64,000 nucleotides of DNA, from NCBI GenBank assembly GCA_030651575.1, contig JAUSFB010000073.1:186001-250000 (forward strand). The letters run 5' to 3'. Positions 36,915-48,085 of this stretch are shown piece after piece. The position numbers and the translations under genes are program-made. Below the pieces are notes generated by a model, which saw only the letters and a program-made list of their open reading frames with translations, ran no database searches and was not told the origin of the DNA. Numbering within the stretch: the stretch's first letter is position 1; every line of letters begins with the position of its first letter. The stretch comes from Phaeospirillum sp. GTDB taxonomy: Bacteria; Pseudomonadota; Alphaproteobacteria; Rhodospirillales; Magnetospirillaceae.

Positions 36915-38879
36915 CTACGCCTCGCCGGTCCGCGACCACGCCCGCAGCCATTCCGCCACGCTCCAGGCCTGGGCGGTGCAGCCGCGCGGCAGGTGCGGTG
37001 CGGCGCCATCGAACACCTCGGCGACGGTACCGACGCAAAATTCGCTCAGATGAGCCTCGAACCCGGTCAGGAAGGCGCGCGCCCCCACCCGGTCGCCGGG
37101 ATGCAACTTTAGCCAGGCATCGACGAAGGGGCCGATCAGCCAGGCCCAGACCGTGCCGCGATGATAGGCGAAGTCGCGGGAATGCAGCCCGCCGGAATAG
37201 CTGGTCTGGTAATCCCCCGCCGCCGGGTCGAGAGACCGCAGGCCATGGGGCGTCAGCAGGCGCTGGCGCACCACCTCGACCACCGCGTCCCACCGGTCCG
37301 GGTCCAGCACCGCATTGGGCAGCGATACCGCCAGAATCTGATTGCAGCGGCAGGTCGGGTCATCGGCCCCATCCTCGCCGTCCACCACGTCGAACAAATG
37401 CCCGGCGGCCGGATTCCAGAAGCGGGCGTTGAACGAGGCCCGCGCCCGATCGGCATCGGCCTGGGCCTGGGCGCCGCCAGCGGCGTCGCCCTCCTCGGTC
37501 AGCCAGCGGGCCATCAGTGACAGGGCGTTGTGCCACAGGGCGTTGATCTCCACCGCCTTGCCCCGGCGCGGCGTCGCCGAGTCCATCCAGGTCAGCATAT
37601 AGCCCTCGATCCCCTGCTTCATCAGGCCGTCGGCCGGGTCCATGCCGATGCCGAACCGGGTTCCGCTCCGATGCTTGTCCATGATCCGCCGCAGGGTCGG
37701 CAAGATCACCCGCAGGGTATCGCGGTCGCCCGTGGCGGCCACATAGCGGTCGAGGGCGTGAAAGAACCACAGGCTGGCATCGGCGGCGTGATAGACGCCA
37801 TCGGTACCACCGTCGGGAATATTGTTGGGGATCAGGCCGTCGCGCTCGTAGGAAGCGAAGGTGCGCAAGATCCACTTGGCGTCGTCGGGCCGTCCGGTAA
37901 CCAGGGTCAACCCCTCCAGGCTGATCATGGTGTCGCGGCCCCAGTCGTTGAACCAGGGATAGCCGGCAATGACGCTGCGCACATCGTCGCCCACCGCATT
38001 GGCCCGCGCCACCAGATCGTGACGGCCGCGCGGGTCGAACAGGAAGGCGTCGGCGGCGGCGACCAGCAGCGCCGCCACGCCGTCACGGCAAGCGGGATGA
38101 GCATGGGCGATCAGACGGCGGCGGCGCTCGGCCTCGGCCGCCAGTGCCTGATCGGCGGTCAGGGCCAGAGCGGTCGGCCAGGGCTCGGCCGAGGCCACCA
38201 GACTGGCGCCGTCGGCTCCCAACGCCACCGTCAACACGCCGGGGCTCCAGACCGGACCCTTGGGAACGTAATCGCGCTCGGCCTCGATGGGATAGAACGC
38301 CTCCTCGGTACGGCCGCCGTCCAAGGACAGGTTCCAGGACGCGCCGCGCACCGCCAGCCGCAGCGGCGGATACGGCCCCTGGGTCACCTCGACCCGGTCG
38401 CCATCCGCATGGACCACCGACGGCATGTGCAGCGGTTGATCGGCCTGACCGTCATTGCCGCGAAAATGCATCCACGGCCGGATCTCCAGCGAGACCGGAC
38501 CGTCGCCGGCCAACTGGCGATACGCGATGACCGTGGTGTTCTGGCGGTAGGGCATCGCCACCCGGCGCTCCAGCACCAGACCGTCGCGCTCGAACCGCCA
38601 GACCGGCAGCCCGGTTTCCAGGCGGAATTCGACGGTGCAATCGGCGAACAGGGCAAGACGCGAACCATCGGCCAGACGCACCGTCTCGTCGATGCGGTCG
38701 AGCAGGATGGTGCGGCCGAACCGGGGCAGCGCCGCCACCAGCAAGCCGTCGTGACGGCGGCTGACGCCGCCGGCCAGGGTGCCGGACGCATAGCCGGCCA
38801 GCCCGTTGGCGATCATCCATTCACGACCGCTGGCGTCGGACGGAGCCTGCACGGGGATGCGGATCTGAGCCTGGTCCAT
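36915..38879 (-). CDS. Glycogen debranching enzyme (amylo-alpha-1,6-glucosidase family)
   Basis: About 654 residues. The N-terminal beta-sandwich domain (GREWMIANGLAGYASGTLAGGVSRRHDGLLVAA) and the GH133-type (alpha/alpha)6 catalytic barrel are both present. Catalytic-domain motifs include PWFNDWGRDTMISLEGL, DASLWFFHALDRY, GYMLTWMDSATPRRGKAVEINALWHNAL and the late YHRGTVWAWLIGPF. It hydrolyses alpha-1,6 branch points in glycogen. The ATG at 38879 has GGAG upstream; the longer frame to 39059 is not needed. It converges on the HTH gene with one base between stops. Confidence 0.92.
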   Translation of the reverse strand: MDQAQIRIPVQAPSDASGREWMIANGLAGYASGTLAGGVSRRHDGLLVAALPRFGRTILLDRIDETVRLADGSRLALFADCTVEFRLETGLPVWRFERDGLVLERRVAMPYRQNTTVIAYRQLAGDGPVSLEIRPWMHFRGNDGQADQPLHMPSVVHADGDRVEVTQGPYPPLRLAVRGASWNLSLDGGRTEEAFYPIEAERDYVPKGPVWSPGVLTVALGADGASLVASAEPWPTALALTADQALAAEAERRRRLIAHAHPACRDGVAALLVAAADAFLFDPRGRHDLVARANAVGDDVRSVIAGYPWFNDWGRDTMISLEGLTLVTGRPDDAKWILRTFASYERDGLIPNNIPDGGTDGVYHAADASLWFFHALDRYVAATGDRDTLRVILPTLRRIMDKHRSGTRFGIGMDPADGLMKQGIEGYMLTWMDSATPRRGKAVEINALWHNALSLMARWLTEEGDAAGGAQAQADADRARASFNARFWNPAAGHLFDVVDGEDGADDPTCRCNQILAVSLPNAVLDPDRWDAVVEVVRQRLLTPHGLRSLDPAAGDYQTSYSGGLHSRDFAYHRGTVWAWLIGPFVDAWLKLHPGDRVGARAFLTGFEAHLSEFCVGTVAEVFDGAAPHLPRGCTAQAWSVAEWLRAWSRTGEA

Positions 38880-38936
38880 GGATGGCACTCCAATAGGAAG
38901 ACGGTCCAGCGTGCCGCAGGCCCCGGCGGGTGTCCA

Positions 38937-38958
38937 GGGGCAAAACGGAGTTTGCCCC
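38937..38958. other. Hairpin in the gap upstream of the debranching enzyme
   Basis: GGGGCAAA (38937-38944) pairs with TTTGCCCC (38951-38958). It lies about 60 bases upstream of the debranching enzyme start, in a 259-base gap that otherwise shows no gene. Confidence 0.4.
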
Positions 38959-39138
38959 TTCGGGACGCGCCCGAAACATGACGGCCGGCCATCTTGATTC
39001 TTCTCGAATTCAGAATTCACCGGCCTGAATATGGCCGGACGACCATCACCCCTCGTCACGCACCGCCATTACTTGTTATTGTGCATCGCTGAATCTTTGT
39101 GGTTCACCTGATGTCGATACACAATGGAGGTATGAGGC

Positions 39139-39888
39139 ATGGCGCGGATCGCGGTGGTGGAGGACGAGGCGCCTCTGCGGACGGATCTGGTCGAATACCT
39201 GTCGGCTTGCGGGCACGACGTGGTGGGATGCTCGGACGGCAAGGAACTGGACCGCAGCCTGGACGATCGGGTCATCGACATCATCATCCTCGACGTCAAC
39301 CTGCCGGGCGAGGGTGGCTTTTCCATCGCCGGCCGGCTGAGATCCCATTCCGAGGTCGGCATCATCATGCTGACCGCGCGCGGTCTTAACGTCGACCGCG
39401 TGGTCGGGCTTGAGGTCGGCGCGGATGTCTACATGGTCAAGCCGGTCGAGCTGCGCGAGCTTGAGGCCCAGGTCCGCACCCTGGCCCGCCGCATGCGCTC
39501 GGCCCCGCCCACCACCAACCCGCCGGCTGCGGGCCGGTCCGAACTTGACGGAGAATTCTTGACGCCGCATCCCTCGACGCCGCCCACCGAATGGATCTAC
39601 GACCAATTGACCTGGACCCTGATCTCGCCCGAAGGCAAGTCCATCAAGCTCACCGGCAACGAGCGGGTGTTCGTGTCGCTGCTGGTCACCCGACCGGGCG
39701 AGCCGGTTTCCCGCGACGAAATCTTCCGCGCCCTGGGTAAACGAGGCTGGGACCCCGCCGACCGCTCGGTGGATTCCATGGTGCGCCGGCTGCGGGCCAA
39801 GGGCGAAGAAGCGTTCGGCTGCGTCCTGCCCATCGAATCCGTTCACAGCATCGGATACGCCTTCGCCGCCGCCGTCGGGCTGCGCTGA
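39139..39888 (+). CDS. OmpR-family response regulator
   Basis: A 249-residue two-domain regulator. The receiver domain has the acidic pair (VVEDEAP), phospho-accepting Asp in IIILDVNLPG (about residue 53), Thr in MLTARG and Lys in YMVKPVE. A 40-residue Pro-rich linker precedes a winged-helix domain (IKLTGNERVFVSLLVTRPGEPVSRDEIFRAL, RSVDSMVRRLRAK). GGAGG upstream supports the start. It lies six bases before the REC-kinase gene, so that kinase or the one at 42256 may phosphorylate it. Targets are unknown; the whole signalling set downstream is a candidate. Confidence 0.92.
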   Translation: MARIAVVEDEAPLRTDLVEYLSACGHDVVGCSDGKELDRSLDDRVIDIIILDVNLPGEGGFSIAGRLRSHSEVGIIMLTARGLNVDRVVGLEVGADVYMVKPVELRELEAQVRTLARRMRSAPPTTNPPAAGRSELDGEFLTPHPSTPPTEWIYDQLTWTLISPEGKSIKLTGNERVFVSLLVTRPGEPVSRDEIFRALGKRGWDPADRSVDSMVRRLRAKGEEAFGCVLPIESVHSIGYAFAAAVGLR

Positions 39889-39893
39889 GCGCC

Positions 39894-41216
39894 ATGACAG
39901 AATCGCGCAAGCTGGTCTTTCGTGACCGTGGCCCTCCGGCCGCCGCAAGGCCCGCCGCCGAGCCCTGGACCGTCCTGGTCGTCGATGACGACGAGCAGGT
40001 CCACGAGATGACCCGGCTTTTGCTCCGCGACCTGGAGTTCGACGGCCGCCCGTTCAAGTGCGTCAGCGCCAATTCAGCCGCCGAGGCCGCGGCTATCCTC
40101 GCCCTGGCCCCCGAAATTCCGGTGGTCCTGCTGGACGTGGTGATGGAAACCCCCGATGCCGGCCTCCGGCTGGTCCGCCACATCCGCGAGGAATTGAACA
40201 ACCCCCGCATCCGCATCATCTTGCGCACCGGCCAGCCCGGCGACGCGCCGGAGCGCGAGGTGGTTCTGGCCCATGACATCAACGACTACAAAAGCAAGGC
40301 GGACCTAACCGCCCAAAAGATGTTCACCGCCCTGATCGGCGCCCTGCGCGCCTGGCGCGACATCACCACCATCGCCGACCTGAATCAGGCGCTGTCGGAC
40401 CTCAACGCCAGCCTGGAGCAAAAGGTGACCGAGCGCACCCGCAAGCTGGAGGACAGCACCGAGGCGCTGACCCGGTCCAAGCTGCGCGCCGAGACCGCCC
40501 TATCCCGCGAGACCGAAGCCAAGCGCCAGTTGCGGCAATTCCTGTCCATGGTCAGCCACGAATTCCGCACTCCGTTGGCGATCATCGATTCCTCGGCCCA
40601 GATGCTGCGCCTGCATGCCGAAAAAGGCGATCCTTCCAGCCTGCCGCGCATCGACACCATCCGGGGCGGCGTCCAGCGGCTGCTCGGCCTGATCGACACC
40701 TGTCTGGCCGACGAACAGTTGGACAGCGGCCGAATCGTCCTGCACGAAAAGGCGTTCGACCTGACCACGATGATCGACGTCGCGATCGCCCACCACCGGG
40801 TCGCGGCCCCCTCGCACTCCTATGCAACCAAGCTGGAATCGCCGCTGATGGTCTGGGGCGACCCCGGCATGGTGGGGCTGGTGATCAACAACCTGCTGGG
40901 CAACGCCATCAAATACTCGCCCGAAAACACCGAGATCCGCATCATCGCCCGCCACGAAAACGGTGATATCGAGCTGAATGTGATCGATCAGGGCATCGGC
41001 ATCCCGGCCGAGGACCTTACGGCCATATTCGAACGCTTTCACCGCGCCTCCAACGCCAGCGGCATTCCCGGCTCTGGCATCGGGCTGCATATGGTCCACC
41101 AGATCGTCGAGATGCATGGCGGCTGCGTCGGCGTGCAAAGCTATGTCGGCAAGGGATCGTGCTTCACCGTCAGGCTGCGGCCGGTCCCGAACCAAGCCGC
41201 GGAGAAGACACCTTGA
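39894..41216 (+). CDS. Receiver-histidine kinase hybrid
   Basis: A 440-residue cytoplasmic protein. The N-terminal receiver domain (VLVVDDDEQVHEMTRLLLRDL, Asp in VVLLDVVMETPDAG, ILRTGQPGDAPEREVV) is of the kind usually paired with DUF3369 or output domains. A coiled coil (QKVTERTRKLEDSTEALTRSKLRAE) leads to a HisKA domain with FLSMVSHEFRTPLA and an HATPase domain with NLLGNAIKYSPENTE and GSGIGLHMVHQIVEMHGG. With input through its own receiver domain, it probably relays phosphate from another kinase. The receiver is strikingly like that of the REC-PAS-GGDEF protein at 43408, so one kinase may feed both. Confidence 0.9.
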   Translation: MTESRKLVFRDRGPPAAARPAAEPWTVLVVDDDEQVHEMTRLLLRDLEFDGRPFKCVSANSAAEAAAILALAPEIPVVLLDVVMETPDAGLRLVRHIREELNNPRIRIILRTGQPGDAPEREVVLAHDINDYKSKADLTAQKMFTALIGALRAWRDITTIADLNQALSDLNASLEQKVTERTRKLEDSTEALTRSKLRAETALSRETEAKRQLRQFLSMVSHEFRTPLAIIDSSAQMLRLHAEKGDPSSLPRIDTIRGGVQRLLGLIDTCLADEQLDSGRIVLHEKAFDLTTMIDVAIAHHRVAAPSHSYATKLESPLMVWGDPGMVGLVINNLLGNAIKYSPENTEIRIIARHENGDIELNVIDQGIGIPAEDLTAIFERFHRASNASGIPGSGIGLHMVHQIVEMHGGCVGVQSYVGKGSCFTVRLRPVPNQAAEKTP

Positions 41217-41296
41217 GCGCCCCCCTGGCCGGGTGCTACCGTCACCGGCGCCCCTTCTTGTCCACAACCCGACGCGCCCCGAGATAGGTGCCCAGA

Positions 41297-41842
41297 ATGC
41301 TTGCAAAATATTACAGGTCCTTCAAGAACGACCTCGACCAGCGGGGCATCATATTCTCATTCTCGGGCTACATGTCCGAAGGCATCTTGTATTCCCTCGG
41401 CGCTGCGTTGCGCCAGAAAATGGCCCTGGAAGACACCAATGTGGGCACCGTCAAAAAGGTGTTCTCGGTATTCGTCGAGCAGGCCCAGAACATCATCCGC
41501 TACTCGGCCGACAAGGTGGGCGACAGGACGTCCAGCGAACTGTCGTCGGGTATGGTCACCATCGGAACCGAAGGCGGCCGCTTTTTCATCGTCTGCGCCA
41601 ATGTGGTGCTCGCCGTGGACGAGCCAAAACTGCGCGAAAGGCTGGAATGCCTACAGAAAATGGACAAGGACGAAATCAAGGCCTACTACAAGGAGCAGCT
41701 GCGCGAAGCCCCAGAGGAGCAGAGTCGCGGCGCCACCATCGGCCTGATCGAGATTGCCCGCCGGGCCAGCGAACCCATCGAATTCGATTTCGATCGCATC
41801 AGCGACGAGACGTTTTTCTTCTGCATGAAAGTATCCATCTGA
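41297..41842 (+). CDS. siaB: SiaB-like protein kinase (DUF6272)
   Basis: A 181-residue GHKL-type kinase-like protein of the SiaB family. FSFSGYMSEGILYSLGAALRQKM begins it, and VFVEQAQNIIRYSADK holds the Asn of the ATP-binding N-box. In Pseudomonas, SiaB phosphorylates SiaC and so keeps it from activating the diguanylate cyclase SiaD. The next gene here is a SiaC homologue. The ATG at 41297 has AGGTG upstream; GTG at 41288 is an alternative. It is the third gene of a six-gene signalling run. Confidence 0.85.
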   Translation: MLAKYYRSFKNDLDQRGIIFSFSGYMSEGILYSLGAALRQKMALEDTNVGTVKKVFSVFVEQAQNIIRYSADKVGDRTSSELSSGMVTIGTEGGRFFIVCANVVLAVDEPKLRERLECLQKMDKDEIKAYYKEQLREAPEEQSRGATIGLIEIARRASEPIEFDFDRISDETFFFCMKVSI

Positions 41843-41849
41843 GGTGGTT

Positions 41850-42242
41850 ATGGAGAATCTCAAGATAGCCGCCACCGAGCGTTCGCCCGAGGTGGATTTC
41901 GATTTCGAGCACGGCGCTCTCAGCCTACGGGGAGAGTCCTATCCGGAGGACGCGTCCACCGTGTTCGGCCCAATCTTCAGCGCCCTGGAGTCCTTCCTGG
42001 CGACGGTCGGCGACCGTGAAATCCGCATCGATTTCGACCTGACCTATTTCAACAGCTCCAGTGCCAAGGCGTTGATGAATATGTTCCAGCGCCTCGACCA
42101 CGCGGCGGCGGCGGGCGCCCGGATCAAGATCACCTGGTTCTTCGCGCCCGACGACGACACCATGAAGGAGTTCGGCGAGGACTTCAGCGAAGACCTGGAA
42201 CACGTCGCCTTTAATCTGATCGCCATCGAAACAGCGGCCTGA
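41850..42242 (+). CDS. siaC: SiaC-family regulatory phosphoprotein (DUF1987)
   Basis: A 130-residue single-domain protein of the DUF1987/SiaC family. RSPEVDFDFEHGALSLRGESYPEDA, IRIDFDLTYFNSSSAKALMNMF and KITWFFAPDDDTMKEFGEDF are typical. The phosphorylation site in SiaC is a Thr in a Y-x-N-T-S-S segment. Here the segment is YFNSSSAK (66-73), so Ser69 is the likely acceptor. Unphosphorylated SiaC binds and activates the diguanylate cyclase partner. GAGG five bases before ATG 41850 sets the start. It overlaps no gene but follows siaB by seven bases. Confidence 0.87.
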   Translation: MENLKIAATERSPEVDFDFEHGALSLRGESYPEDASTVFGPIFSALESFLATVGDREIRIDFDLTYFNSSSAKALMNMFQRLDHAAAAGARIKITWFFAPDDDTMKEFGEDFSEDLEHVAFNLIAIETAA

Positions 42243-42255
42243 GGTCGCAGAGACG

Positions 42256-43287
42256 ATGGCCGACTTCAACCTCTTCGATGCGGAGGAAAAGACCCTCGAA
42301 CAGGCCGAGGAGTTGCGTCACGGCATGGCCGACGCGCCGGCGGCGATCAGGGACGGCCTTGCCACCCTGATCGATTCCTACGGCCGCAGCGTGCGCGAAC
42401 AGCGCCGTCTGGTCCGGGTCAGCGACCGGTTGCAGGCCCAGCTGGCCACCGTCAATCACGAACTGGGCAAGCGCAAGGCCGAGGCGGAACAGGCGCTGGA
42501 CGATCTGAAATCCGCTCAGGAATCCCTGGTCCAGGCGGAAAAGCTGGCCTCGCTCGGCGCCCTGGTCGGCGGCGTCGCCCACGAGATCAACACCCCGGTT
42601 GGGATCGCCCTGTCCTGCGCCTCCCACCTCGCCGACGCCACCCAAGACATCAAAAAGCTGTTCGAGGCCGACGATATCGGCGTCGACGACTTCAAACGCT
42701 ACATGGCCACCGCCATGGACACCACCAGCCTGATCCTGTCCAACTGCGAACGCGCCGCCCAGTTGATCCGCAGCTTCAAGCAGGTGGCGGTCGACCGCAC
42801 CAGCTCGGAACGTCGCGACTTCGACCTGTGCGCCTATATCCGGGAAACCCTGGCCAGCCTGGGACCGCATCTGCGACAGGCCGGCCACACCGTGTCCATC
42901 GACTGCCCCGGCGGCATCACCATGACCAGCTATCCCGGCGCCCTGTCGCAGGTTCTCAGCAACTTTGTGATGAATTCCCTGGTCCACGGCTTTGAACCCG
43001 GCCAGATCGGCGAGATTCGCATCGAGGTCGATCAGGTCGAGCCCGATCAGGTCCGACTCACCTACGCCGACACCGGCAGAGGCATCCCGGACCAGAATCG
43101 CGGCCGCATCTTCGACCCGTTCTTCACCACCAGACGCGGCATCGGTGGCTCTGGCCTGGGGCTGCATATCGTCTACAACCTCGTCACCGGTCCGCTGGGA
43201 GGCAACGTCTCCGTCGAATCCCCCGCCAAGGGCGGCACCGCCTTCGTCGTCACCGTTCCCCAGGTAACGGCCTCCCCCACCGTCTGA
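42256..43287 (+). CDS. Cytoplasmic histidine kinase
   Basis: A 343-residue kinase with no membrane segment and no recognised sensory domain. A helical N-terminal region (about 1-95) is followed by HisKA with LASLGALVGGVAHEINTPVGIAL and HATPase with NFVMNSLVHGF, DTGRGIPDQNRGRIFDPFFTTRRGIGGSGLGLHIVYNLV. The H-box type is like those of kinases acting with REC-GGDEF or NtrC-type partners. It sits between siaC and the diguanylate cyclase and is the likely donor for the cyclase receiver domain. It may take the place of the SiaA sensor missing from this locus. Confidence 0.9.
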   Translation: MADFNLFDAEEKTLEQAEELRHGMADAPAAIRDGLATLIDSYGRSVREQRRLVRVSDRLQAQLATVNHELGKRKAEAEQALDDLKSAQESLVQAEKLASLGALVGGVAHEINTPVGIALSCASHLADATQDIKKLFEADDIGVDDFKRYMATAMDTTSLILSNCERAAQLIRSFKQVAVDRTSSERRDFDLCAYIRETLASLGPHLRQAGHTVSIDCPGGITMTSYPGALSQVLSNFVMNSLVHGFEPGQIGEIRIEVDQVEPDQVRLTYADTGRGIPDQNRGRIFDPFFTTRRGIGGSGLGLHIVYNLVTGPLGGNVSVESPAKGGTAFVVTVPQVTASPTV

Positions 43288-43407
43288 CTCGCAACGTTTC
43301 GTCACCAGATGCGGCAATTGGCCGGTGGCGTCGCAGGGGCTGCCATGCGACGCTGGCATGTGGGAATGGGAGGGAAGTGTCGAGCCCAGGAAAGGGGCTG
43401 CTTGAAC

Positions 43408-44826
43408 ATGCAGGAAACCTCCACACGACCGGACAAGGGGCGCCCCTTGCTGCGCCGCGCCAAATCGGCCGCCATCCCCTCCGCCGCCGAGCAGCCCTGG
43501 CCGATTCTGGTGGTGGATGACGAGCCCGACGTTCACGCCATGACCCGGGTGCTGCTGCGTGACCTGTCCTTTCAGGGACGCCCGTTCGAGGTGATCAGCG
43601 CCTATTCCGCCGCCGAGGCCCGCCGGATCCTGACCGAGCGGCCCGACATCCCGGTGGCGCTGCTGGACGTAGTGATGGAAACCGCCGATGCCGGCCTGAC
43701 CCTGGTCGAACATATTCGCCGCGATCTGAGAAACAACCGCCTTGCCATCGTGCTGCGGACCGGACAGCCGGGTGAAGCGCCCGAGCGCGAGGTCATGCAG
43801 GCCTACGACATCAACGACTATCGCGGCAAGACCGAACTGACCGCCCAAAAACTGTTCACCGCCCTGGTCGGCGGCCTTCGCTCCTGGACCAACCTCTCCA
43901 CCATCGAAACGCTGAACGCCACCTTGGAGCAGCGGGTGGAAGCGCGGACCTGCGAGTTGGACCGCGCCCGCCGCTTTGCCGAAAACCTAGTGGACATGCT
44001 GCCCCATCCGGTCTGGTACAAGGACGCCGCGGGCGGTCTGCAAATGTACAACCGCTCGTTCAGGGAACTGTTTCACCTGCCGGATCACGGCTCGGCCATG
44101 CCCGCCCCGCTGGAGGAGCTCGACCGCCATACCGACGCGACCGTACGGAACGACGGCCTTGGCAGTCTGGCGTTGGAGGCCACCTTGGACATGGGTGGCG
44201 AGCAGCGGACGGTGATGATCAGCAAGGGACTGCTGACCGAGGAATCCGCCGGCCCGCCGGGCACCATCGGCCTGATCACCGACATCACCGAACGCAAGCG
44301 GATGGAGCACCAGCTTCGCCAATTGGCCACCACCGACGACCTGACCGGCACCTTGAATCGCCGCGCTTTCTTTACCGCCGCCGAGCAGGAGACCGAACGC
44401 TCGGTGCGCTATGGCAATAGCGTCTCCGTTCTGATGTTCGACATCGACTACTTCAAGCAGGTCAACGACCGCCACGGCCACGCCGTCGGCGATCAGGCGC
44501 TGCGGGCGGTCGCGGCCGCCCTGCGCGACAACCTGCGCGAGGTTGATATTCTGGGGCGTCTCGGCGGCGAGGAGTTCGCCGTCCTGCTGCCCGAAACCTC
44601 GCTGGACGACGCCATCGATGTGGCCGAACGCCTGCGTCAGGCCATCGCCGCCATCCAACTCCAGCCGGGCCAACTCCAGCCGGGCCAACCTCCGCTGACC
44701 CTGACCGCCAGCCTGGGAGTGGCCGAGCGCAACGCCGACGAGGTCACCGTCGACATGGTGCTGGCGCGCGCCGACCTGGCGCTCTACCGCGCCAAGGCCC
44801 ATGGCCGCAATCAGGTGATGGCCTAG
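43408..44826 (+). CDS. REC-PAS-GGDEF diguanylate cyclase
   Basis: A 472-residue output protein. The receiver domain (ILVVDDEPDVHAMTRVLLRDL, Asp in VALLDVVMETADAG) is followed by a coiled coil, a PAS domain (AENLVDMLPHPVWYKD to TIGLITDITERKRM), and a GGDEF domain. The active site GGEEF is intact, and an RxxD inhibitory site (REVD) lies five residues before it. It should make c-di-GMP under control of phosphorylation, PAS ligand and perhaps SiaC. A 15-base tandem duplication gives LQPGQLQPGQ near the C-terminus. The ATG at 43408 is chosen because upstream codons do not align with the family. Confidence 0.9.
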   Translation: MQETSTRPDKGRPLLRRAKSAAIPSAAEQPWPILVVDDEPDVHAMTRVLLRDLSFQGRPFEVISAYSAAEARRILTERPDIPVALLDVVMETADAGLTLVEHIRRDLRNNRLAIVLRTGQPGEAPEREVMQAYDINDYRGKTELTAQKLFTALVGGLRSWTNLSTIETLNATLEQRVEARTCELDRARRFAENLVDMLPHPVWYKDAAGGLQMYNRSFRELFHLPDHGSAMPAPLEELDRHTDATVRNDGLGSLALEATLDMGGEQRTVMISKGLLTEESAGPPGTIGLITDITERKRMEHQLRQLATTDDLTGTLNRRAFFTAAEQETERSVRYGNSVSVLMFDIDYFKQVNDRHGHAVGDQALRAVAAALRDNLREVDILGRLGGEEFAVLLPETSLDDAIDVAERLRQAIAAIQLQPGQLQPGQPPLTLTASLGVAERNADEVTVDMVLARADLALYRAKAHGRNQVMA

Positions 44827-46810: not shown

Positions 46811-48085
46811 TCACGCGTCCAACGGATAGACCAGACGTTCCGGCAGTTGATGGAAGCCGAAATTGTTCTTTCCCGAGCCCTTGACGCCGTACATGGCGCG
46901 GTCGGCCAAGCGAACCAACTCCGCCGCGTCATCGGCGTCGTCGGGGAAGATGGCGATACCGATGCTGGCCTTGACGTTGGCCTGATGGCCGTCGAGGTCG
47001 AAGTTTTCCGCCAGTCGGGTAACCATCTTGGAGGCGACCACGCCAACCTCGTCGCGGCCGTCGATATCGTGCAAGATGACGGTGAACTCGTCACCCGACA
47101 ACCGCGCCACCGTATCGGACGACCGCACCGCCAACAGCAGCCGCGCCGCCGCCTCCTGCAACAAAAGATCGCCGATGGAGTGTCCAAAGGTGTCGTTGAC
47201 CGCCTTGAACCCGTCCAGGTCGATGAACAGCAGGGCAAAACGGGTGCGGTCCCGCCGCGCCGCCTTGATCGCCTGACTGAGGCGGTCGAGAAACAGCGAG
47301 CGGTTAGGCAGGCCGGTCAGGGCGTCGAAATTGGCCTGGCGCCAGACCTGCTCCTCGTCCTCCTTGCGCGACGTGATATCGGCGAAGATCCCCAGCATGT
47401 GGGAGACATGGCCGGAGGCGTCGCGCACCGAGGCGATGGACAGCCACTCGATGAACACCTCGCCTGATTTGCGCCGGTTCCAGACTTCGCCCTGCCATTG
47501 GCCGGTCTCGTTGATGCTGCGCCACATCTCGCGGTAGAACTCGGGCTCGTGACGGCCGGATTTCAAAAAACCCGGCCGCCGGCCGATGGCCTCGTCCGGG
47601 CCAAAGCCGGTGATGCGGGTAAAGGCGGTGTTGACCGCCTCGATGGTGGCGTCGGCCCCGGTGATCATGATGCCTTCATTGGCGGTTTCCACCACCTTGG
47701 CCGCCAGTTGCAGCCGCTCCTCGGCGGTCTTGCGCTCGGTGATGTCATAGACCCAGGCAAGGTTGACCGGCTCGCCGGCATAGGCCGATTCCCGGATGGT
47801 CAAAAGCGTCCAGAACGGGATGCCGTCCGAGCGGCGGAACTGAACCTCGGCGTGATCGACGCTGCCGTTGCGCACCAGATGCTTGATCACCGCGGAACGT
47901 TGCTGCTCGTCGACGTAATAGCCGCGCGCGGTCGAGCCCAGCACCTTGGAGTGGGGCACTCCGACCAACTCGCAAAACGTATGATTGGCGAATACGATGA
48001 CGCCGTCGCGGCGTCGCGAAATCGACACTCCGATCGGACTGTCTTCGAGAACGCTGGCGAGGCCGCTGAGGTCAAGCACGCTCAT
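46811..48085 (-). CDS. PAS-PAS-GGDEF diguanylate cyclase
   Basis: A 424-residue soluble protein with two PAS domains (about 10-115 and 130-250, each ending in a DITERK or DITSRKEDEE linker) and one GGDEF domain. The active site reads SGDEF, a variant that can be active, and an RxxD site (RSSD) lies five residues before it. Substrate-side residues DLDGFKAVNDTFGH are intact. It probably makes c-di-GMP in response to redox or a small ligand. No EAL domain is present. The C-terminus PERLVYPLDA extends past the domain. Confidence 0.9.
   Translation of the reverse strand: MSVLDLSGLASVLEDSPIGVSISRRRDGVIVFANHTFCELVGVPHSKVLGSTARGYYVDEQQRSAVIKHLVRNGSVDHAEVQFRRSDGIPFWTLLTIRESAYAGEPVNLAWVYDITERKTAEERLQLAAKVVETANEGIMITGADATIEAVNTAFTRITGFGPDEAIGRRPGFLKSGRHEPEFYREMWRSINETGQWQGEVWNRRKSGEVFIEWLSIASVRDASGHVSHMLGIFADITSRKEDEEQVWRQANFDALTGLPNRSLFLDRLSQAIKAARRDRTRFALLFIDLDGFKAVNDTFGHSIGDLLLQEAAARLLLAVRSSDTVARLSGDEFTVILHDIDGRDEVGVVASKMVTRLAENFDLDGHQANVKASIGIAIFPDDADDAAELVRLADRAMYGVKGSGKNNFGFHQLPERLVYPLDA

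Follow-up and report, generated by a model that had tools for sequence, protein, structure and literature searches.

The closest described counterpart of the locus reported here is the SiaABCD system of Pseudomonas aeruginosa (PDB 7e6g, 6kko and 6k4f). According to the crystal structure of the SiaC-SiaD complex, the docking site of SiaC is the stalk of the GGDEF protein SiaD, where Thr68 of SiaC contacts S82 and Q86; phosphorylation of Thr68 blocks this binding, and SiaD is activated by SiaC docking (PMC8457831). The same paper names HptB-HsbR-HsbA-HsbD and BgrSTUWV as partner switches, mentions the suggestion that SiaC-family proteins act on neighbouring proteins and raises the question why bacteria use a separate binding protein (PMC8457831). 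Here, we analyzed a stretch of 64,000 nucleotides from a Phaeospirillum sp. genome (the window), in which genes of the SiaB and SiaC families lie between those of two histidine kinases (HK1 and HK2), in one operon with an OmpR-type regulator (P1) and a receiver-PAS-GGDEF protein (P6). We propose, with a probability of roughly 0.7, that SiaA, SiaB and SiaC form a partner switch which acts on a two-component network via HK2: SiaC would dock on HK2 in its unphosphorylated form, and HK2 would phosphorylate the receivers of HK1 and P6.

The predicted SiaC-binding stalk of HK2 and its counterparts

The operon consists of six open reading frames (ORFs) on the plus strand, identified from the ORF list of the window at positions 39139-44826. 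The genes and the features within them are:

39139..39888, plus strand: P1, OmpR-type response regulator with receiver and winged helix (Pfam Response_reg 1.5e-19, Trans_reg_C 1.3e-12)
39894..41216, plus strand: P2 (HK1), with receiver, HisKA and HATPase_c domains (Pfam); adjoins P1 in 17 of the 20 family SiaC loci read
39960..40418, plus strand: receiver of HK1, which HK2 is proposed to phosphorylate; identical to the P6 receiver at 94 of 155 positions; truncated in a congener without SiaABC-HK2
41297..41842, plus strand: P3, SiaB family kinase (NCBIfam NF038262, 212 bits, cut-off 85; PDB 6kko chain A, 4.8e-19; Pfam DUF6272)
41850..42242, plus strand: P4, SiaC family phosphoprotein (Pfam PF09345, 1.7e-41, 141 bits, cut-off 24.5; PDB 6k4f, 4e-20; SiaC of 6kko/7e6g, 7.2e-20)
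42054..42056, plus strand: codon of the proposed acceptor Ser69 of SiaC, counted from ATG 41850; aligns with P. aeruginosa Thr68
42256..43287, plus strand: P5 (HK2), histidine kinase with N-terminal predicted SiaC-binding stalk (HATPase_c 3.3e-24)
42256..42510, plus strand: predicted SiaC-receiver stalk of HK2, residues 1-85 (A3 profile 4.3e-31; model helix 29-137)
42415..42435, plus strand: motif RVSDRLQ of HK2, residues 54-60, equivalent of SiaD RISDRYQ 80-86
43408..44826, plus strand: P6, receiver-PAS-GGDEF diguanylate cyclase (GGDEF 1.6e-44); likely start ATG 43408, longest ORF from 43309
43504..43821, plus strand: receiver domain of P6 (Pfam Response_reg 30.2 bits, at the cut-off); in a clade with HK1 receivers, support 0.981

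The SiaD chain contains two SiaC motifs, ARISDGFQ and ARISDRYQ. HK2 carries VRVSDRLQ at residues 53-60, which is identical to SiaD at R80, S82, D83, R84 and Q86. A stalk profile built from 11 genes matched only P5 among the 544 window ORFs of at least 60 amino acids and gave no match to P2 or P6; this test is partly circular, because all seeds were taken from genes adjoining SiaC. With the broader A3 profile (28 rows) and 13 of the 35 first-look candidates scored, the genome gave no match other than P5 at E ≤ 1e-5. A phmmer search of the PDB with the stalk region alone gave weak matches only (E 0.014 or worse, to other kinases and coiled coils), SiaD not among them; SiaD was recovered when a full stalk-GGDEF protein served as query.

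HK2 shows the features of an orthodox kinase. HATPase_c is matched with 85.9 bits, and H109, N236, N240, D272, G274, G276, G298, G300 and G302 are invariant in 30 sequences, as is the block H109-E110-x-N112-T113-P114. Pfam HisKA was detected in only 3 of the 30 sequences, and the window's copy is not one of them. An AlphaFold2 model from the 30 sequences (mean predicted local distance difference test, pLDDT, 80.6; predicted template modelling score, pTM, 0.52) contains a single helix, residues 29-137; the motif lies on this helix, in a region of pLDDT 87, as does the phosphoacceptor His109. Among the matches listed, the Foldseek neighbours of this model are mainly histidine kinases, including the protein-inhibitor complex KinB-Sda (3d36). 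Motif, position and co-occurrence together suggest that SiaC docks on HK2, which is probably its partner rather than the cyclase.

Stalk proteins are found next to SiaC in other bacteria, too. A scan of the genome collection gave 80 named loci, which are the best 80 of 218 and biased to the window's own lineage. Directly after SiaC, 77 of them have a stalk gene. By output, 45 loci encode a histidine kinase, 14 a GGDEF protein, 11 a class III cyclase and 5 a GAF-HD-GYP protein; two loci have frame fragments (the other frame continues a kinase in one and a GGDEF domain in the other) and three have none. Examples of each output class were checked with Pfam. The motif was compared over 77 classified stalk proteins, which include two extra ones not adjoining SiaC and leave out a weak stalk (L125:5708-6601) in which the motif was not picked up. 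D83 is present in 77/77 and R84 in 76/77; at position 82, 74 proteins have Ser and three have Cys. At position 86, Gln occurs in 43/47 kinases and 14/14 GGDEF proteins, and Glu in all class III cyclases (11/11) and GAF-HD-GYP proteins (5/5). On a SiaC tree with 75 tips, the two fragment loci being treated as a separate class, the output label changes 10 times, compared to a mean of 28 for shuffled labels.

In addition, 398 Pseudomonadota genomes sampled without regard to SiaC were searched. SiaC was matched in 67 of them (two marginally) and the stalk in 53; both occur in 52, SiaC only in 15, the stalk only in one and neither in 330 (Fisher p about 3e-50, relatedness ignored). The stalk search may miss cases, because at most 13 candidates per genome were scored. 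In three SiaB-SiaC loci (L124, L141 and L144) the ORFs of at least 80 amino acids gave no stalk-profile match, nor was the motif present in the longer of the plus-strand ORFs that follow directly.

Several loci show unusual arrangements. At L150:5053-8994 the SiaBC pair lies between a stalk-kinase and a stalk-bearing GAF-HD-GYP protein, and one SiaC may serve two outputs. L149:1753-9976 contains tandem SiaC genes together with three genes for PP2Cs and one for a stalk-GGDEF protein; a SiaB gene was not found within this stretch. A second stalk protein near SiaC is encoded at L139:9324-11525 (a kinase with receiver and Hpt domains) and at L054:1468-3750 (with kinase similarity).

An earlier note on this DNA, made from the sequence alone, had described six closely spaced plus-strand genes with SiaB and SiaC among them, and this description holds. 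With the likely ATG starts 41297, 41850 and 43408, the gaps between P1 and P6 are 5, 80, 7, 13 and 120 bases. P3 and P4 belong to the SiaB and SiaC families and score below the P. aeruginosa SiaB equivalog NF038264 (113.8 of 225 bits) and the SiaC equivalog NF038265 (95.7 of 150 bits). The Response_reg match of P6 is borderline (30.0 to 30.2 bits, Pfam cut-off 30.2) and PAS_7 is under its cut-off; with its GGDEF match, the LLDVVME block common with HK1 and a GGEEF site, P6 qualifies as a receiver-GGDEF cyclase with an acceptor Asp. The alignments of P6 with 11 homologues from congeners begin between residues 21 and 43 of the long ORF, and Met34 is the likely start.

SiaC is a single gene in the window's genome, and its closest named relatives come from Magnetospirillum/Paramagnetospirillum-type Rhodospirillales. 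The note had proposed a check of gene order in related genomes. Of the 20 family genomes in which the region around SiaC was read, 17 have the full order regulator-HK1-SiaB-SiaC-HK2, so the arrangement is not due to chance; L065, L066 and L067 lack the regulator and HK1 at this place. The Ser acceptor, which the note had pointed out, is present here but is not special: it is Ser in 81/81 SiaC ORFs of the 80 loci, and it is therefore the Thr of P. aeruginosa which departs from the rule. The operon is flanked by a divergent glycogen debranching enzyme gene (36915-39059, minus strand), and a PAS-PAS-GGDEF protein is encoded nearby on the opposite strand (46811-48085, minus strand).

A SiaA homologue on another contig

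None of the six genes encodes a PP2C phosphatase according to Pfam. The window's genome contains seven SpoIIE-type PP2C genes. One of them, a membrane PP2C on a contig other than that of the operon (G000:C20:44785-46500, read as L064:3286-5004), is a homologue of SiaA. It scored 215.6 bits against the NCBIfam SiaA model NF038263, which is under the equivalog cut-off of 700, and the next best gene among the matches listed reached 65.4 bits; the matches listed for 4 of the 7 PP2Cs reach down to about 62 bits, and weaker SiaA matches are possible there. The active-site residues of P. aeruginosa SiaA are D474, C475, G477, D600, G601 and D653 (PMC7647112). By inspection by eye, the C20 protein keeps the corresponding D-C-x-G, TDG and final D blocks. 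Homologues of this PP2C adjoin the SiaBC-HK2 operon in L089 and L085; the PP2C profile used for such linked genes was built from SiaC-linked matches and the C20 gene.

A SiaA match of at least 150 bits, a line chosen after the numbers were known, is present or absent together with SiaC in 40/40 genomes. In the window's family, 22 of the 24 genomes have both SiaA (at least 462 bits) and SiaC. The other two, G004 and G022, have neither and also lack SiaB; the G022 assembly is 88% complete. Among more distant genomes, the seven with SiaC have a SiaA-like PP2C of at least 155 bits, and the nine without SiaC have at most 33 bits.

The earlier note had read the locus as one without SiaA, in which the two kinases stand in its place, and had set a PP2C SiaA co-conserved elsewhere in the genome as the finding that would speak against this. 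The first part stands for the six genes themselves, which include no PP2C. A true lack of SiaA was rejected, because the C20 homologue exists and co-occurs with SiaC throughout. The idea that HK1 and HK2 replace SiaA and reset SiaC draws on the missing PP2C of the operon; against it stand the unlinked homologue and a PP2C which is linked to SiaC in 17 of the 45 kinase-type loci as well. Since HK2 bears the predicted SiaC-binding stalk, it looks like the target of SiaC and not like a phosphatase, and we consider such a replacement extremely improbable.

A SBP_bac_5/permease gene set follows SiaA in the window's genome. As a clue to the signal, the neighbours of SiaA were rejected: such a set is present at 1 of 15 further SiaA loci (L162; none in L163-L176) and was therefore given no weight. 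Two loci which hold the more distant SiaA-like PP2C show a weak SiaB-like match adjoining it (L177, G008:C170, 27.9 bits; L178, G009:C1:478000-490000, 24.4 bits); perhaps these pairs form a second, divergent partner switch. In G009, a second SiaA-like HAMP-PP2C follows the cyclase of the operon (L041:11893-13443), and further congeners have second PP2Cs of similar score.

Receivers and the proposed route of phosphotransfer

The close likeness of the HK1 and P6 receivers, also recognized in the earlier note, is confirmed by the 94 identical positions among 155 aligned; the receivers of genes 1 and 2 share 29 of 157. A receiver of this P2/P6 type is present in 45/45 kinase-type SiaC loci and in 2 of the 35 others, L092 (kinase split between frames) and L150, both of which hold a stalk-kinase. 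In a receiver tree, one clade (support 0.981) unites every SiaC-linked receiver but the one of L150 and also takes in the unlinked HK1 of G006; receivers of other operons fall outside it. The P6 receivers form a clade (0.996) nested among those of HK1. Searches of 23 relatives revealed 11 further kinases which are HK2-like in their catalytic half (E ≤ 1e-30), eight of them within 5 kb of a P2/P6-type receiver. Among the matches listed, all nine non-operon receivers of this type adjoin an HK2-like paralogue. Seven of the eight receiver-linked paralogue loci were read, and two (L155 and L156) have a receiver-DUF3369-GGDEF partner. At E ≤ 1e-30, the window's genome contains one HK2-type kinase and two such receivers (the latter with 75 of 140 candidates scored), all located in this operon.

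Two congeners bear on the function of these receivers. G004 (assembly 100% complete, 2% contamination) has kept the regulator and HK1 (L152) and gave no match to SiaA, SiaB or SiaC, to HK2 at E ≤ 1e-30 or to P6 at E ≤ 1e-60. Pfam finds no receiver in its HK1, whose alignment to P2 does not begin before residue 104-105. The receiver is truncated: the 77 bases between the end of the regulator and the start of the alignment are too few to encode the missing part. G002 has kept SiaA, SiaB, SiaC and HK2 and has no P6-type cyclase at E ≤ 1e-60 (in the window's genome, 66 of 74 candidates were scored in the P6 homologue search). Judging from these patterns, the HK1 receiver seems to matter only as long as the SiaC-HK2 branch exists, and the cyclase looks like an additional, second output. 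Linkage and the G004 case suggest that HK2 phosphorylates the receivers of HK1 and P6.

It might be argued that the genes are mere neighbours, SiaBC acting elsewhere and the kinases and the cyclase forming a separate two-component system. G006, where regulator-HK1 and SiaBC-HK2-cyclase lie on separate contigs, fits this idea. The joint absence in G004 together with the truncated HK1 receiver, the single stalk match in the genome and the restriction of P2/P6-type receivers, among the 80 SiaC loci, to those with a stalk-kinase make it highly improbable.

The earlier note had also proposed a hybrid switch in which His-Asp relay and Ser phosphorylation both gate the cyclase. The joining of Ser phosphorylation, His-Asp transfer and cyclic di-GMP (c-di-GMP) is retained in our proposal, and the parallel gating is not: the cyclase has no stalk and G002 keeps SiaABC-HK2 without it, so the inputs look serial. 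A direct action of SiaC on P6, parallel to Asp phosphorylation, would agree with the location of the cyclase in the same operon and with the activation of a GGDEF enzyme by SiaC in P. aeruginosa (PMC8457831). As a candidate it was rejected for the lack of a stalk in P6. The similarity of P6 to SiaD is confined to the GGDEF domain (NF038266, 178.8 of 290 bits), and GGDEF genes directly after SiaC carry their own stalk (14 loci), as opposed to P6. Together with G002, this makes direct action very unlikely.

For control via HK2, we consider the following route likely. In response to a signal, the membrane PP2C SiaA encoded on contig C20 would remove the phosphate from Ser69 of SiaC and SiaB would add it; by homology, the steps up to SiaC would follow the Pseudomonas biochemistry. 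Unphosphorylated SiaC would bind to RVSDRLQ on the HK2 stalk, whose helices run in parallel, in the same manner as it binds to SiaD in P. aeruginosa, and would thereby set the state of the adjoining His109 helix. Phosphate would pass from His109 to the Asp of the HK1 receiver, tuning HK1 and P1 and with them transcription, and to the Asp of the P6 receiver, affecting c-di-GMP. Activation is the likelier sign, as a guess from SiaD.

The same wiring with the opposite sign, unphosphorylated SiaC holding HK2 in a phosphatase or inactive state, appears less probable and is in our opinion unlikely. The motif points to docking and not to its effect, and KinB-Sda is among the Foldseek neighbours of the model; SiaC docking activates SiaD in P. 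aeruginosa (PMC8457831).

Several observations weigh against control of the network via HK2 as proposed. HK2 shows one SiaC motif in place of the two of SiaD, and four SiaD contacts are changed (R74 is E48, M88 is Q62, R90 is A64 and D91 is T65). The model is weak between motif and His109 (mean pLDDT 54 for residues 91-100 and 57 for 101-110, at the overall pTM of 0.52), and the polarity of the SiaC effect is a guess. The SiaC interface positions, as a set, track the output class no better than others (2657 of 10000 random sets were as good). Three of the 11 HK2-like paralogues have no P2/P6-type receiver nearby, the extra stalk-kinase of L139 has its own receiver and Hpt domain with no such receiver nearby, and the SiaC-linked L150 receiver groups with receivers of other operons. 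G004 represents a single lineage. Finally, 15 of the 67 SiaC genomes have no stalk match and one stalk genome has no SiaC. Co-variation of the interface residues with output class was dropped as not significant for the set; E110 and D79 of SiaC rank first and second among the positions tracking output class.

Comparison with known partner switches

SiaD is the sole described target of the SiaC (DUF1987) family in the literature examined, and no report of SiaC acting on a histidine kinase, a class III cyclase or a HD-GYP protein was found in open-licence titles and abstract openings. We consider it likely that the stalk to which SiaC binds is a general input module that can be exchanged between proteins, and that evolution has coupled a Ser partner switch in this way to four or more kinds of output enzymes (histidine kinases, diguanylate cyclases, class III nucleotide cyclases and GAF-HD-GYP proteins). 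In the lineages of Magnetospirillum and Azospirillum this would create a Ser-to-His-to-Asp route, with one switch controlling transcription and at the same time, in genomes that have the cyclase, c-di-GMP. The family would thus gain a readable target code, the SDRxQ/E-stalk gene after SiaC, which predicts partner-switch control of histidine kinases, class III cyclases and HD-GYP proteins. Three bacterial signalling styles would be joined in one operon, and a single adaptor for many output enzymes is a possible answer to the question why a separate binding protein is used.

P6 resembles the PleD/WspR-type cyclases by its receiver before GGDEF and the expected activation by Asp phosphorylation. 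It differs from them in its receiver type, which is shared with HK1 and also found before DUF3369, and in an upstream kinase predicted to be itself under a partner switch. HptB-HsbR-HsbA-HsbD and BgrSTUWV likewise link a STAS-type partner switch to a diguanylate cyclase. There the STAS protein acts on the cyclase, whereas here the predicted target is the kinase upstream of it. In Sda-KinB (3d36), a small protein controls a kinase by docking. Sda, however, does not belong to the SiaC/STAS proteins and is not known to be switched through phosphorylation of a Ser. The likeness to SiaABCD comprises the SiaB and SiaC families, the membrane PP2C SiaA and the SDRxQ motif on a helical stalk. The stalk is located here on a histidine kinase and not fused to GGDEF, SiaA is outside the operon, the acceptor is Ser instead of Thr, and a His-Asp step is predicted in addition. 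The locus would therefore work like SiaABCD, yet stand outside the four-gene system, with SiaD replaced and SiaA unlinked.

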